From NCBI GenBank assembly GCA_919901555.1, contig CAKKPG010000057.1:1-32825 (forward strand): 32,825 bases of DNA, read 5' to 3'. Source of the DNA: Nitrospiria bacterium. GTDB taxonomy: Bacteria > Nitrospirota > UBA9217. The position numbers and the translations under genes were made by a program. Below are positions 26,741-32,762 of this stretch, piece by piece (within the stretch, counting starts at the first letter, position 1; every line of letters starts with the position of its first letter). The notes beneath the pieces are model-generated. The model worked only from the letters and a program-made list of their open reading frames with translations. It did no database searches and was not told the DNA's origin.

Positions 26741-27034
26741 ATGTCTGATTATTTCATAACCGTCGATGACGACCACATCAAGCGCGAAAAGGCAAAGGCG
26801 CGGGAACTCCGGAATTCCCAGTGGTGGAAGCGGAAACGCTCAAGCGGCATATGCCATTACTGCGGCGGGAAGTTCAAACCGGCGGAACTGACGATGGATC
26901 ACCTCATCCCCGTGGCGCGCGGCGGCAGATCAGTGCAGGGCAATCTCGTGCCCGCGTGCAAGGAATGCAACAGCAAAAAAAAATATCTCCTCCCCATGGA
27001 GTGGGAGGAGTATCTGGAGGCGTTGCGAAAATAA
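26741..27034 (+). CDS. HNH endonuclease
   Basis: A 97-residue small HNH nuclease. Zinc pairs C38/C41 (CHYC) and C73/C76 (CKEC) bracket the DHLIPVARGG catalytic beta-beta-alpha motif (D53, H54) and N77, as in McrA-like and phage HNH proteins. It probably cuts or nicks DNA; the biological role (restriction, phage-derived, homing) cannot be told. It is transcribed away from mraZ and has no good ribosome site before the ATG at 26741. The 280-base gap to mraZ holds the dcw promoter and otherwise nothing I can recognise. Such HNH genes are seen next to housekeeping genes as well as in defence islands. Confidence 0.85.
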   Translation: MSDYFITVDDDHIKREKAKARELRNSQWWKRKRSSGICHYCGGKFKPAELTMDHLIPVARGGRSVQGNLVPACKECNSKKKYLLPMEWEEYLEALRK

Positions 27035-27252: not shown

Positions 27253-28239
27253 TCATGGTTTGTCTTTCGGCGGCGGCAATTGCTTCACCATGCGGTCAAA
27301 GTCCGATTCGAGTGCCCGGTCTTCGCGACTATGGAACTTGTCGTATTCCTCCTCCGCATAAGTCTTGGCCAGTTGTGCGGAAACTTTGCCGGCGTTCTGG
27401 AGAATTTCCCGATCGTTCAGCGTCAGGAATCCTTCCAGCTTGGTAATCCAGTCTTGCATGGTCATTGCCACCCGACGCTCCGCCTGGCCTTCAGCAAAAA
27501 TGAGATATTGTTCCACCAGGTTATTCAACGCCCGTAATTCCTCCTCGTTGAGGTAATTCTTCGCGATGCTGACATCCGATTTGCGGATGCGCGCCCCTTC
27601 CCAATTGGTAAGCCCCATGTTTGACAGGTCGCTGTCCGCGCGGGATTGGATCACCTCGGCCGCGGTCTGGCCGTGGATAGCGTAATGAACCTTATTTTGC
27701 ACGGTGGCGAAGAACTCCTTGGTGAGCGGATGGTCTTTGTCGTAATCCACGCTCGTCGCGTAAATGTCAGTGATTTTTTGGTAAAACCGCCGCTCGCTGG
27801 TGCGGATGTCCTGGATGCGCCGGGTCAGTTCCTCGAAGTAATCGTTCCCCAGCTTCGGGTTTTTCAGGCGCTCATCGTCCAGCACGAAGCCCTTGATGAT
27901 GTATTCCTTGAGCTTGTCGCCCGCCCACTGGCGAAACCGCACGGCCACCGGGCTACGCACGCGGAAGCCCAGCGCCAGAACCATGTCGAGGTTGTAGTAG
28001 GCCACCTTGTAGTCTTTGCCGTCGGCGGCAGTTGTTCGGAAATCCCGAACAACTGAATCGGCCTTCAATTCTCCATCCTCAAAGATGTGCTTGATGTGCT
28101 CGCTGATGGTGCCCTTGGACTTGCCGAACAGCTCCGTGAGCTGTTTCTGGTTGAGCCAGAGGGTCTTGTCCTCCAGCCGCACATCCAGCCTGGTACGTCC
28201 GTCCTCGCTTTGGTAAATCAAGAATTGGTTCATGGTCAC
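27253..28239 (-). CDS. rhuM: RhuM family protein
   Basis: A 328-residue protein of the virulence RhuM family, named from Salmonella pathogenicity island 3 and often found inside type I restriction-modification and other defence loci. The N-terminal part has a winged-helix-like DNA-binding stretch (LNQKQLTELFGKSKGTISEHIKHI, residues about 29-52) and the family motif YYNLDMVLALGFRVRSPVAVRFRQWA (81-106). The C-terminal half is helical, with SDLSNMGLTNWEGARIRKSDVSIAKNYL. Length is complete. The GTG start at 28239 overlaps the stop of a lost upstream gene (GTGA) and has GAGGAG before it. Biochemical function is unknown; regulation or toxicity in defence loci is a guess. Confidence 0.9.
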   Translation of the reverse strand: MTMNQFLIYQSEDGRTRLDVRLEDKTLWLNQKQLTELFGKSKGTISEHIKHIFEDGELKADSVVRDFRTTAADGKDYKVAYYNLDMVLALGFRVRSPVAVRFRQWAGDKLKEYIIKGFVLDDERLKNPKLGNDYFEELTRRIQDIRTSERRFYQKITDIYATSVDYDKDHPLTKEFFATVQNKVHYAIHGQTAAEVIQSRADSDLSNMGLTNWEGARIRKSDVSIAKNYLNEEELRALNNLVEQYLIFAEGQAERRVAMTMQDWITKLEGFLTLNDREILQNAGKVSAQLAKTYAEEEYDKFHSREDRALESDFDRMVKQLPPPKDKP

Positions 28240-28396: not shown

Positions 28397-28561
28397 TCAA
28401 CAATGCTCTTTTTCGCTATCCATATATGCGAGTCTACGACGCAGAACACTTGTATCATCATCTGAAACTGTTCCAGATAGCAACACTTTGCCCCATACTT
28501 TGCGGTTACTCGCATCACGATAACGATACACGAAAACAGAATAGCCTGTTGCCATATTCAT
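28397..28561 (-). CDS. small ORF downstream of the helicase gene
   Basis: A 54-residue frame starting ATG at 28561 with GGAAG a few bases before it, 36 bases after the helicase stop. It reads MNMATGYSVFVYRYRDASNR at the start, then a mixed hydrophobic and charged sequence with VWGKVLLSGTV near the middle and an acidic DDD, and ends DSEKEHC. It is too short to be confident and I do not recognise it, but the ribosome site, placement and protein-like composition suggest a real third gene of the NUDIX-helicase operon. The alternative is random open sequence or the start of a truncated gene. Confidence 0.35.
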   Translation of the reverse strand: MNMATGYSVFVYRYRDASNRKVWGKVLLSGTVSDDDTSVLRRRLAYMDSEKEHC

Positions 28562-28597
28562 CGTCTTCCAAACATTCTCTGCTACGAAGTAGGACTA

Positions 28598-31500
28598 TCA
28601 ACCGCCTCGTCGGTTTTCCTCGAACATGTCAGCTGGCATCGGATACTGTAATTGCCAAACCACTTTGATTGGCCTCTCGCTTTCATAACTAACGCGGTTT
28701 GCTGGCCCCAAGTATGTGAACGGAAAGGTAATATTATTTCTTTTTTTCGTAGCCCGAGCAAAAATCAGAATTGCATAGCCACGATCCATATGATGAATCA
28801 AATTCTTCCCCGTTTCGCTTTCTTGTGTTGTGTTGGACTGAGATTCCCAATGAAGCAGTTCACGGCTAATGGGATAATCTGCGTACATGGTACTTGGAGA
28901 GAACTCCCGTTCCGTCTTTTGGAAGGTGATGAGGAGAACATATGCTTTGATCTCCCTAAAATGAAGCACGCCGACTCCTGTCTGACCGGAAGATTCAAAC
29001 GTCGCCATTCCCAGAGCGGCATTGACGTCAACGCTGCCATATTGTGCATGCAGCTCAAACGTACAGGGGAACTTCAAAATCGGGACTGCGCCGCTTATAC
29101 GAGTTTCAGATTCTGTCCATTCAAGAACTTCATCCAGATCGGAGAGGATTGTGGGATTGGAGATGATTTTCATGAACGATTCTTCTATGGTTGTGATTCC
29201 CAATTGCCCAGCGGTTTTCGCCCACAACCGATAATGTACAGACATAGCAGTGTCATCAGTTGCAGCAACAGCTCCAGCGATATCGTGTTGCCGGAGCTTA
29301 TCCACCACTCGTCTCAACCGAAGAATCTCACGTGGTCCAGTTGTATAAGCAGCGCGCACAAGTGCTGACCTGAGGCGCTTGATGTCCGGGTCATGAGGTG
29401 GCGATACAAGTTGTGCTCGTGACTTCCACTCTGACCACGACTCTCTCATAAGAAGTAATTCAGGCTCGTAATCATGGTAGCGCACAAAATTGGCGAAGGT
29501 CAATGGCTGCTTTGATTCATTCTCAAAGGTTTGAAGCCTTTCTGGCACCTGAATAGAGAGATTTTGTAAATTCTCTCGAATATTTTTCAGCACATGCTCC
29601 CGTGCAATTCGGTCAAGCTGGATGGAGCATCCTGCGGGAAGATGCGGGAAATCAAGTTCAACCTCACGGTCGATCGCATATCTACTTTTGGGAAGCAAGG
29701 CCTTCAACTTACTATCAAGACGGTAGCGACGATGCGCCTGGCCGACAAAGTCAAGCACAGTAAGGCAATCCTTGCCCGGCGAATGGCGTAGACCTCTGCC
29801 CAGCTGCTGGAGAAACACTGTAAGACTTTCCGTGGGCCGGAGGAACAAGACGGTGTTCATGTCGGGAACATCAAGCCCCTCATTAAGCACATCCCGCGTG
29901 AACAAAAAGGTTAGTTTTCCCTCTCTAAAATCATGCAATAGCGCGGTTCGTTCACTGACGCCAGTTTCACCGACGAGTACAGCTGACGGTATACCACGGT
30001 CCGTGAACATACGCGCCATGAATTCTGCATGATTAACTGAAACGCAGAATCCAATCCCCTTCACCAGTGACAGGTCGGGCTCATAACGGAGTAGGGCATC
30101 CAGAATAACATCAAGGCGTTGCTTGGCCAAGGCATGTGCCCCTGTGTATATATTTTCCAACTCATTGATGTCGTATTTGCCATTACTCCAAAATCGGTCA
30201 GCGTCAAGTGCCACGGGGTCGGCCGCACCAAAGTAGTGAAAAGGACAAAGCAGTTTTTCTTCAAGCGCTTCAGGCAATCGGATGTCCGCAGCAAATCGGT
30301 TGCCAAAGTCCGCTGCAACGCTTTTCCCATCCATGCGTTCGGGTGTCGCCGTAAGCCCGAGCAGAATATGCGGCTTGAACTGGTCAAAAATCGCACGATA
30401 GCTGTCCGCTGGGCCATGATGCGCTTCATCAATAACAATGTAGTCGTAGAATTTCTCACCGACCTGTTCCCACAGCCGACGCGTGGACATCATATCCACT
30501 GAGCAGAACAGATGATCCATGCGCATTGCCACGTGAGGCCCTGCAAGGAGCTCACCGAAGTCAGCGATACGCAGTACATTCCTGAAGGTAGCCACGGCTT
30601 GTTCCAGAATCTCTCGGCGGTGAGCGACAAAAAGAAGACGGGCCTGCCTTTGCTTTTGCTCAAAGAATCGTCGGAAATCAAAAGCTGCAACGACGGTCTT
30701 TCCGGTACCTGTTGCAGCGATAATAAGGTTACGATAATAATTATGTACATTCCGCTCAGACTCCAGAGCATCGAGTATGCGCTCCTGAAATGGATGCGGG
30801 CGAAGGTCAAAAAAAGCCGTGGCAAGAGGATTTAGTGGATTGCGCGCATGCTGTATCGCATCGCGGAAAATTTGTGGGTTTTCAGCGTCAAAGGGTACAA
30901 ACTCTTGGCTGTTCCAATAGGTATCGAACTCAGCTGAAAATTTGTCGAGAATGTGCGGCATGTCCTGAGTTGTAACCTTGAGGTTCCACTCAAGACCGCT
31001 TGTAATTGCCGCGTGAGACATATTTGATGACCCGATATACGCTGTTGAATAACCGGTATTACGCTTGAAGTAATATGCTTTAGCGTGAAGCCGCGTTCTT
31101 TTTGTGTCGTACGATACTCGTACTTTGACATTCGGTTGCCGGGCTAACCACTCTACAGCCGGGGCATCTGAGGCACCCATATAAGAGGTCGTAATTACTC
31201 GAACAGACACGTTCCGCAATCGAAGATCTGCGAATGCAGGCATCAGAAGACGTAAACCAGCCCACTTGATGAAGGAAACCAATATGTCCACTTCATCGGC
31301 TGAACGCATCTCCTCTTGTAACTCATGCACAAGCTGAGGCTCGCGAGGCGCGCCAGTAAAAAGACTACTCTCAGTAAGCGGTGTCTCTGGCCGAGGCATT
31401 CCCTGCTGCACGTAATGAGGTGGCGTTATCTCCAGTAAAACGGACTTTGGATTGATGATTAATGTATGTTTTCCAAGGTGGGTTCTTTCTGCAGTCCCGG

Positions 31501-31750
31501 AAACAAAATTGATCAGTCGGTTACAAAGGGCTAAACGCGCCGCAGAATCCATTTCCAGTCGCAACGCTTGTTCGATTACCTTCGCAACAAAGGTGGCATA
31601 GCGTGCGGGCTCCTCCTCCGGATCAAGCTTTCCAAAAAGAGAACGCAACTCGGGATGCCTTTCGAGCGCGGCCCGCAAACCTTCGTCGAGCAGGGTCTCA
31701 TAGATGCCGAAAGCGGGAATATCTTTGTTGTCATAAGAAAATGTCGACAT
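28598..31750 (-). CDS. PLD-nuclease / SF2 helicase / DUF3427-like fusion protein
   Basis: A 1050-residue multidomain protein. Residues about 130-280 form a phospholipase-D-like nuclease domain with the HxK..N signature (H222, K224 and N243 in LHAKAYYFKR..YIGSSNMS). Residues about 315-690 are an SF2 DEAD/DEAH helicase core: Walker A AATGTGKT (345-352), DEAH (441-444), GLTATP (465-470) and motif VI QQLGRGLRH (648-656). The rest (about 690-1045) fits the DUF3427 region known from such proteins. The order PLD, helicase, DUF3427 is found in scattered bacterial accessory loci and is suggestive of DNA-targeting defence or repair. Its ATG shares a base with the NUDIX stop (TAATG), so it is translated with it. 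AT content is clearly higher than in the dcw genes, suggesting transfer. Exact function not known. Confidence 0.88.
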   Translation of the reverse strand: MSTFSYDNKDIPAFGIYETLLDEGLRAALERHPELRSLFGKLDPEEEPARYATFVAKVIEQALRLEMDSAARLALCNRLINFVSGTAERTHLGKHTLIINPKSVLLEITPPHYVQQGMPRPETPLTESSLFTGAPREPQLVHELQEEMRSADEVDILVSFIKWAGLRLLMPAFADLRLRNVSVRVITTSYMGASDAPAVEWLARQPNVKVRVSYDTKRTRLHAKAYYFKRNTGYSTAYIGSSNMSHAAITSGLEWNLKVTTQDMPHILDKFSAEFDTYWNSQEFVPFDAENPQIFRDAIQHARNPLNPLATAFFDLRPHPFQERILDALESERNVHNYYRNLIIAATGTGKTVVAAFDFRRFFEQKQRQARLLFVAHRREILEQAVATFRNVLRIADFGELLAGPHVAMRMDHLFCSVDMMSTRRLWEQVGEKFYDYIVIDEAHHGPADSYRAIFDQFKPHILLGLTATPERMDGKSVAADFGNRFAADIRLPEALEEKLLCPFHYFGAADPVALDADRFWSNGKYDINELENIYTGAHALAKQRLDVILDALLRYEPDLSLVKGIGFCVSVNHAEFMARMFTDRGIPSAVLVGETGVSERTALLHDFREGKLTFLFTRDVLNEGLDVPDMNTVLFLRPTESLTVFLQQLGRGLRHSPGKDCLTVLDFVGQAHRRYRLDSKLKALLPKSRYAIDREVELDFPHLPAGCSIQLDRIAREHVLKNIRENLQNLSIQVPERLQTFENESKQPLTFANFVRYHDYEPELLLMRESWSEWKSRAQLVSPPHDPDIKRLRSALVRAAYTTGPREILRLRRVVDKLRQHDIAGAVAATDDTAMSVHYRLWAKTAGQLGITTIEESFMKIISNPTILSDLDEVLEWTESETRISGAVPILKFPCTFELHAQYGSVDVNAALGMATFESSGQTGVGVLHFREIKAYVLLITFQKTEREFSPSTMYADYPISRELLHWESQSNTTQESETGKNLIHHMDRGYAILIFARATKKRNNITFPFTYLGPANRVSYESERPIKVVWQLQYPMPADMFEENRRGG

Positions 31751-32163
31751 TAACCTACATCCAAACTTTTTATCTTTAGCCGTTCTTGGTAACTCTTGAT
31801 CACCGGCCAGTCCGCATCAGCCCAGTCAAGCATATGTAGTTCCTCCGGCTGCATCCAAGCGATAGCCTTGTGCTCGTGGAGGGTGATTTCGCCTGCGACA
31901 ATTCTGCATACAAACGGGTAGAGTGTCACGATAAACGTCAGGTATGAGTGGGTTACTGGAGGATACGGCTCACTAACAGTAACTTCTATCCCCATTTCTT
32001 CAAGCAATTCACGTATCAAACATTCAGAGGGATTCTCCTCATGCTTGATCTTTCCACCGGGAAACTCCCATTTGAGCGGCAAGCTCATGGCCTCGCTACG
32101 CTGCGCCGCAAGAACTCTTCCATTCTGCTCTATGATTGCACATGCGACCGGTATTGTTTTCAT
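31750..32163 (-). CDS. NUDIX hydrolase (MutT/NudG-like)
   Basis: A 137-residue NUDIX protein that hydrolyses nucleoside diphosphate-X compounds, most like the 8-oxo-dGTP or (deoxy)CTP pyrophosphatases. The NUDIX box is complete: GGKIKHEENPSECLIRELLE and EMGI, giving G-x5-E-x7-REL-x-EE-x-GI with metal-binding glutamates. Length is typical. The ATG at 32163 begins MKTIPVACAIIEQ, the usual family start; 32196 is another ATG without ribosome site. It is the first gene of a two- or three-gene operon with the helicase. Pairing with a nuclease-helicase suggests nucleotide-pool or signal processing in a defence setting, which is inference. Confidence 0.92.
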   Translation of the reverse strand: MKTIPVACAIIEQNGRVLAAQRSEAMSLPLKWEFPGGKIKHEENPSECLIRELLEEMGIEVTVSEPYPPVTHSYLTFIVTLYPFVCRIVAGEITLHEHKAIAWMQPEELHMLDWADADWPVIKSYQERLKIKSLDVG

Positions 32164-32273
32164 ATCTCTACAAGTTGTTTCCGTAACACATTGCATTCAA
32201 ATAACCAATGTTAGTCAGAACGTTACTATAGGATGCCGGAAAATGCAAGAAATTAGATACGACATAATATGAG

Positions 32274-32762
32274 TTACTTATTCAATTTCAACTCCCGAAA
32301 TTCCTTATCCGCCCCGCTGCTAACAATATCAACGAGAACTTCCTTGACCCGCTTCGGACCTATGGTCTTTGCAGCTTCTTCCAGCACATCCTCCGTCTCG
32401 AATGCTTCTATCCCCCGCTTTGCCGCCTCCGCCAAAATATCCTCATCATCCGTCGCGAGGACCATGCTTCGTTCCTGGGCCACTGCGATACAGGCGCGGT
32501 CGGTGTCGCTGAACTTCCTCGGCAGGCTTGCAATGATCCCGAATTCCTCTTCCGTGAGGTCATCGATCATCGCGGTTTTTCCATCCATGATGGATGCAGC
32601 CAGCGCCTTCAGTTCGGGAAAGCGCTTTGTCCCACGCTCGGCCTCATCACGCACGAGGCTCAGAACGGACAGCCTACCCTGAAACATCCGTTCGAGAAGA
32701 CCGTAGTGGCCGGCCCGTGCGAAGTGAGAATAGGCAGAGGTATCAAGCAGGATGTTTTTTAA
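32274..32762 (-). CDS. PIN-domain protein, probable toxin (VapC-like)
   Basis: A PIN-fold ribonuclease of about 162 residues. Acidic metal-binding positions stand in NILLDTSAYSHF (D7), KFSDTDRACIAVAQ (D86, D88) and VLATDDEDIL (D105-D106), the order seen in VapC-type PIN toxins. The conserved first strand lies upstream of the first in-frame ATG (32687), so the true start must be further up; there the frame has TTA at 32762 or CTG at 32750 and no ATG, GTG or TTG. The start codon is therefore uncertain and may be non-standard. It overlaps the end of the preceding partial gene by about 20 bases, as in antitoxin-toxin pairs. Confidence 0.75.
   Translation of the reverse strand, partial: LKNILLDTSAYSHFARAGHYGLLERMFQGRLSVLSLVRDEAERGTKRFPELKALAASIMDGKTAMIDDLTEEEFGIIASLPRKFSDTDRACIAVAQERSMVLATDDEDILAEAAKRGIEAFETEDVLEEAAKTIGPKRVKEVLVDIVSSGADKEFRELKLNK

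Follow-up and report, generated by a model that had tools for sequence, protein, structure and literature searches.

A Nudix hydrolase gene coupled to a SauUSI-like type IV restriction gene in a Nitrospiria bacterium: a candidate two-gene system acting on modified cytosine

A contig of a Nitrospiria bacterium (GenBank assembly GCA_919901555.1, contig CAKKPG010000057.1; the window is the whole analyzed stretch of 32,825 nucleotides) carries two minus-strand genes, one for a Nudix hydrolase and one for a fusion of a phospholipase D (PLD)-type nuclease, a superfamily 2 (SF2) helicase and a DUF3427 domain, that overlap in the pentanucleotide TAATG. The minus-strand junction, GGTTAATGTCG, has one A common to the Nudix TAA and the helicase ATG, as described in an earlier note made from this sequence, which proposed a defence operon. 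The question raised by this locus is what a nucleotide hydrolase does beside such a helicase. We consider it moderately probable that the two genes constitute a type IV restriction system acting on modified cytosine both in DNA and in the deoxynucleoside triphosphate (dNTP) pool, with the Nudix enzyme most likely preventing self-restriction.

The helicase is a SauUSI-like type IV restriction enzyme, as judged by sequence profiles and structural models. The PADLOC type IV mREase profile PDLC03659 matches amino acids 120-1043 (1.5e-193), a PADLOC profile of SauUSI length gives 4.5e-87, and the top match in the Protein Data Bank (PDB) is SauUSI of Staphylococcus aureus (7clg, 2.6e-88); PbeA, BREX, Dpd, PsyrT and other multi-gene systems produced weaker, partial PADLOC matches and were rejected. 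The Pfam models PLDc_2, ResIII, Helicase_C and DUF3427 each exceed their cut-offs, in an order that places the SF2 ATPase between the nuclease and the target recognition domain (TRD) of a single chain, and RE_NgoFVII also matches (5.2e-8). The catalytic His and Lys of the PLD HxK motif (H222, K224) are invariant across 26 relatives; N243 and the SF2 motifs AATGTGKT (345-352) and DEAHH (441-445) are likewise present and kept in relatives, in agreement with the earlier reading. The glutamate of the HxK(x)4E motif is replaced by Lys229, at a position that varies among relatives. The full-length AlphaFold2 (AF2) model aligns with 7clg over 933 columns at about 25% identity (Foldseek); since this model is moderate (predicted local distance difference test, pLDDT, 78.8; predicted template modelling score, pTM, 0.61), the domain orientation was left uninterpreted. 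Thus, the helicase does not come from an unnamed system, as had been supposed, whereas the defence character proposed for the operon is borne out. According to excerpts of PMC7913695, SauUSI cleaves DNA with 5-methylcytosine (5mC) and 5-hydroxymethylcytosine (5hmC); by analogy, the window helicase is predicted to carry out ATP-dependent cleavage of DNA containing 5-modified cytosine.

The C-terminal domain probably reads 5-modified cytosine in DNA, judging from profile and fold comparisons. A profile built from the last 230 amino acids of 39 relatives matches the isolated SauUSI TRD (9.9e-12), and the AF2 model of this region (pLDDT 91.4) has as its best fold matches SauUSI, SUVH6 with methylated DNA, KRYPTONITE, AbaSI, LpnPI, MspJI, PvuRTs1I and the SRA domain of UHRF1, all readers of 5mC or 5hmC. 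In SauUSI, Asp858 and Trp868 are modelled as contacting or stacking on the flipped cytosine (excerpts of PMC7913695); the equivalent window residues, Asp958 and Trp968, are invariant in 26 aligned relatives.

The Nudix enzyme carries a specificity signature that points to the same modifications. The Nudix box is intact in the window protein and in all 44 helicase-linked Nudix proteins tested. An Asp and a His (D118 and H98 in the window) occur together in 43 of these 44, and are common to three characterised 5-methyl-dCTPases, namely Escherichia coli NudG, Bacteroides fragilis Q5LBB1 (PDB 3gwy) and mycobacterial MutT2, whereas MutT has Asn and Gly; the His is present in 5 of 17 unlinked Nudix proteins. 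Among PDB matches to the window Nudix, Q5LBB1 ranks second and NudG fourth, and 3gwy nests among the SauUSI-linked Nudix proteins in a tree (support 99/96). Activity was measured for those two enzymes and is predicted for the window protein: 3gwy hydrolyses 5-methyl-dCTP (4.8e6 per M per s), 5-hydroxymethyl-dCTP (4.4e6) and 5-hydroxy-dCTP (8.5e4), and NudG prefers 5-methyl-dCTP (1.3e6) to CTP (4.7e4) (PMC5158307). We infer from the signature that 5-methyl-dCTP and 5-hydroxymethyl-dCTP are the likely substrates. Because the 3gwy substrates match the targets of SauUSI, the prediction for the window is that both enzymes target these two modifications, the helicase in DNA and the Nudix enzyme in the pool. 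The NCBIfam NudG equivalog PRK10546 scores 94 bits against a cut-off of 156, and the window protein was therefore not filed as NudG itself; a MutT 8-oxo-dGTPase was rejected (Asp in the Asn119 column; NCBIfam MutT, 82.5 bits versus a cut-off of 97.9).

The pairing of the two genes is not a product of chance. In genome contigs covering 80 loci of the window's helicase class, all 22 Nudix matches adjoin the helicase, and no Nudix gene was found elsewhere in the 648 kb flanking these loci. Among members of this class overall, 27 of 98 have an adjacent Nudix gene, which is thus not obligatory. In SauUSI-proper, a Nudix gene accompanies 13 of 15 genes in a sample of 399 Bacillota genomes, and 94 of 109 genes when this sample is pooled with two class-level samples that overlap it. 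These 94 pairs include Nudix genes upstream on the same strand (51), downstream on the same strand (24) and downstream in convergent orientation (19); the SauUSI-proper tree implies at least seven changes of arrangement, with adjacency retained. The S. aureus record has a Nudix gene immediately upstream of SauUSI, six of eight helicase-bearing records from a phage collection (possibly bacterial DNA) include one, and no Nudix-helicase fusion was found among the loci scanned. Therefore, the Nudix gene is a genuine partner, and the earlier note, which had called such coupling unusual and would have taken a rarity of upstream Nudix neighbours, or membership of a named system without one, as a sign of chance, was right on the partnership and wrong on the rarity: a named system, SauUSI, has this neighbour.

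The association follows the reader domain. The helicase tree contains three clades, i.e., PLD-SF2 proteins (mostly about 800-900 amino acids), SauUSI-proper and the window's class, the last being separate and supported. Nudix genes accompany 0 of 30, 15 of 17 and 27 of 98 members, respectively, so that the DUF3427-bearing clades (42/115) differ from the PLD-SF2 sister clade (0/30) at p=9e-6; DUF3427 was absent in all five sister-clade proteins scanned with Pfam, the other 25 being placed by the tree. Since the PLD-SF2 clade has no Nudix partner, the Nudix gene tracks the reader domain and not the PLD-helicase in general. Within groups, the distances between helicases are correlated with those between Nudix proteins (0.88, 0.63 and 0.76; permutation p<=0.006), which fits long co-inheritance; the tree is unrooted, and gain and loss of the Nudix gene are therefore indistinguishable.

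Several other genes occur at related loci. The second commonest neighbour in the window's class is an HNH endonuclease, generally about 290-380 amino acids long (16 loci, including L003, L041 and L047, with a position immediately upstream of the Nudix gene in the last). It may be a further restriction enzyme; it also occurs in Nudix-bearing loci, and was rejected as a substitute partner in those that lack the Nudix gene. In one lineage, helicase genes that lack a Nudix neighbour are overlapped at their 3' end by a uracil-DNA-glycosylase-like gene (L006, 4614-5354; also L005). Locus L212 (3611-5832), from a relative that has six C5-methyltransferase matches, contains an Asp+His Nudix gene and a RecQ-like helicase gene, the former overlapping the end of the latter. 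A genome of the same family without the helicase has a solo same-clade Nudix gene beside histidine-synthesis genes (L211, 5671-6066).

Residue 858 of the reader offers a lead on specificity. Among 104 SauUSI-proper genes, a Nudix gene accompanies 90 of the 94 with an acidic residue and 1 of the 10 with Asn (p=2.5e-9, relatedness ignored). The analogy of uracil-DNA glycosylase leads one to expect that an Asp-to-Asn exchange shifts the preference from cytosine towards uracil- or thymine-type bases, and it is possible that Asn858 homologues without Nudix have changed their target base. Seven such loci were noted (L105, L110, L222, L243, L244, L274 and L278), and five of them have in common a divergent neighbour, about 350 amino acids in length; in a second Asn858 group without Nudix (L302, L303), the neighbours on the same strand measure 281 and about 300 amino acids and are 95% identical to each other. 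No cognate methyltransferase adjoins the two window genes, and the host genome (96.5% complete) has no match to the C5-cytosine methyltransferase family PF00145; this is expected if the host has to avoid 5mC at the target sites in its DNA.

It should be noted that the window pair is a divergent member of the SauUSI-type set. It shares with SauUSI the PLD nuclease, SF2 ATPase, coupler and SRA-type TRD in a single chain, the equivalents of D858 and W868, and the upstream Nudix gene; the window helicase is, however, about 100 amino acids longer. NgoAVII and CglI also combine a PLD nuclease with an SF2 ATPase, but are multi-subunit with a B3 TRD (excerpts of PMC7913695), whereas the window enzyme is one chain with an SRA-type TRD. 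The window Nudix matches the PADLOC phage defence candidate profile PDC-S07, which also has matches in 11 of 14 control genomes. Excerpts of PMC12813430 report PDC-S07 co-localised with type IV restriction-modification in 23 of 23 occurrences in Streptococcus suis and give no mechanism there; the legend of Fig. 9 of PMC7641849 notes SauUSI-MutT adjacency in Streptococcus, with neither a function nor a survey in the part consulted. The abstract and a word search of the SauUSI structure paper yielded no mention of a Nudix partner, and in the open-access literature searched, SauUSI and Nudix are co-mentioned only in unrelated passages of a single paper. Apparently, the pairing was seen earlier in these partly consulted sources, yet left unexplained; as far as we searched, there is no precedent for its breadth, for its confinement to clades that bear the reader or for the agreement in substrate.

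The features of the locus are collected in the table. The Nudix frame can be extended to 31750-32196 on the minus strand, and the start preferred here and previously, the internal ATG at 32163, is that used by relatives. A 54-codon open reading frame (ORF; 28397-28561), which starts 36 nucleotides downstream of the helicase gene after a GGAAG, had been listed as a third component; the frame and its ribosome site are present, but no homologue was found across 178 loci fetched around related helicases, and this candidate was rejected. The GC content is 49% for the helicase gene, 48% for the Nudix gene, 42% for the small ORF and 61% for the dcw region; from inspection of its ORFs, the rest of the window reads mostly as the dcw cell-wall and division cluster. 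The lower GC is confirmed and is consistent with horizontal transfer of the pair, so that the transferred island claimed earlier stands as a compatible interpretation. A RhuM-family gene (PADLOC PDC-S05; 27253-28239) and a 97-amino-acid HNH gene (26741-27034) lie between mraZ and the operon, which suggests that the dcw cluster borders an insertion site; both had been named correctly as neighbours, while the reported PIN gene (32274-32687) scores just under the Pfam cut-off.

Features of the Nudix-helicase locus, with positions in the window
Feature	Position	Strand	Evidence
Nudix hydrolase gene, 137 codons	31750..32163	minus	Pfam NUDIX 4e-18; PADLOC PDC-S07 1e-49
Nudix His98, MutT Gly column	31870..31872	minus	His in 43/44 linked Nudix; NudG, 3gwy, MutT2
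Nudix Asp118, MutT Asn119 column	31810..31812	minus	Asp in 44/44 linked Nudix
TAATG stop/start overlap, Nudix/helicase	31748..31752	minus	sequence
SauUSI-like PLD/SF2/SRA-type restriction enzyme, 1050 amino acids	28598..31750	minus	PADLOC mREase_IV 1.5e-193; 7clg 2.6e-88
PLD nuclease domain, amino acids 152-279, with H222, K224, N243	30914..31297	minus	Pfam PLDc_2 2.1e-10; residues invariant
SF2 ATPase, amino acids 317-676	29723..30802	minus	Pfam ResIII 1.1e-33, Helicase_C 8.4e-15
DUF3427, putative SRA-type modified-cytosine reader, amino acids 853-1045, with Asp958, Trp968	28616..29194	minus	Pfam 1.4e-23; SauUSI TRD profile match; fold search
54-codon ORF, not a conserved component	28397..28561	minus	no homologue in 178 loci

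The proposed protective role can be formulated as follows. The C-terminal SRA-type domain of the SauUSI-like protein would recognise DNA that contains 5-modified cytosine, the SF2 motor would translocate, and the PLD nuclease would cut or shred the modified DNA. Salvage or shredding of such DNA would release 5-modified dCMP, which may be rephosphorylated to 5-modified dCTP; if built into the host chromosome, this nucleotide would turn the chromosome into a restriction target. The Nudix enzyme would hydrolyse 5-methyl-dCTP and 5-hydroxymethyl-dCTP to monophosphates before they are incorporated. In its specific form, i.e., two-tier immunity, with a type IV enzyme that brings its own dNTP-pool guard against salvage-derived 5-modified dCTP, this proposal is plausible but tentative. 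Several observations weigh against it. In 71 of the 98 window-class members no Nudix gene is adjacent, and same-clade Nudix genes are also found without the helicase (L181). The positions of the SauUSI methyl contact Tyr831 and of Glu126 are not kept in the window, and the modification targeted may therefore differ from that of SauUSI. Asp by itself is not diagnostic, since 3hhj and 3r03 also carry it; enzymes of the NudG type accept further substrates, 2-hydroxy-dATP being listed for NudG (PMC5158307), and the literature search gave no activity assay for a linked Nudix or a linked pair. The residue-858 correlation comprises three independent Asp-to-Asn events, two with Nudix loss and one without (neutral); with so few changes, it is a lead and no proof, and was rejected as significant support. 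C5-methyltransferase matches over the cut-off occur in 1 of 11 helicase-bearing versus 22 of 88 other relatives, and in 4 of 25 versus 6 of 20 in Bacillota; neither difference is significant, and an anticorrelation with the helicase was discarded as unconvincing.

The main rival assigns the same substrate an opposite purpose: the Nudix enzyme would destroy modified dCTP made by a phage and thereby starve phage replication, and any modified DNA synthesised before that would be left to the helicase to attack. The substrate prediction is identical, and phage kinases for 5-methyl-dCMP and 5-hydroxymethyl-dCMP are reported (PMC10742078); however, with less modified dCTP, phage DNA would be harder for the reader to detect, and the two activities would therefore be partly opposed; moreover, the solo Nudix gene beside histidine-synthesis genes has a housekeeping context. 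We regard such offence as unlikely, though sequence does not tell it apart from pool protection. An improbable alternative is a general house-cleaning enzyme that clears oxidised or other mutagenic dNTPs, has no connection with the base read and is co-inherited for convenience, as the MutT-type annotation in databases and the optional presence of the gene in the window's class would allow; against this, the MutT signature is absent and the NCBIfam cut-off missed, adjacency survives the rearrangements, and none of the 30 members of the PLD-SF2 sister clade has a Nudix partner. The earlier note had offered two guesses, a defence against damaged nucleotides and a nucleotide signal. The former is favoured here; the latter, in which the Nudix enzyme makes or breaks a small molecule controlling the nuclease, accords with the tight translational coupling, but the nearest characterised relatives are dNTP pyrophosphohydrolases and the Pfam matches of the helicase include no cyclase or effector-sensor domain, which makes it very improbable. 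Chance neighbourhood, for which the Nudix-less members of the class could be cited, is already contradicted by the surveys and the distance correlations, and is the least credible of all. Overall, what had been observed at this locus is confirmed, and its earlier interpretation is supported in part.

According to excerpts of PMC7913695, SauUSI is a principal obstacle to gene transfer in S. aureus. If pool protection is the true role of the Nudix enzyme, modification-dependent restriction would have a self-protection step, as the methyltransferase provides in restriction-modification. SauUSI-type restriction would then be a two-gene system, in which the Nudix enzyme is the metabolic counterpart of an immunity gene and its specificity agrees with the base that is read. 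This would suggest a use for PDB 5x1x, named merely MutT protein and 100% identical to the Nudix adjacent to SauUSI in S. aureus, and for the PADLOC candidate PDC-S07, and it predicts a match between the base recognised by the reader and the substrate of its Nudix partner.

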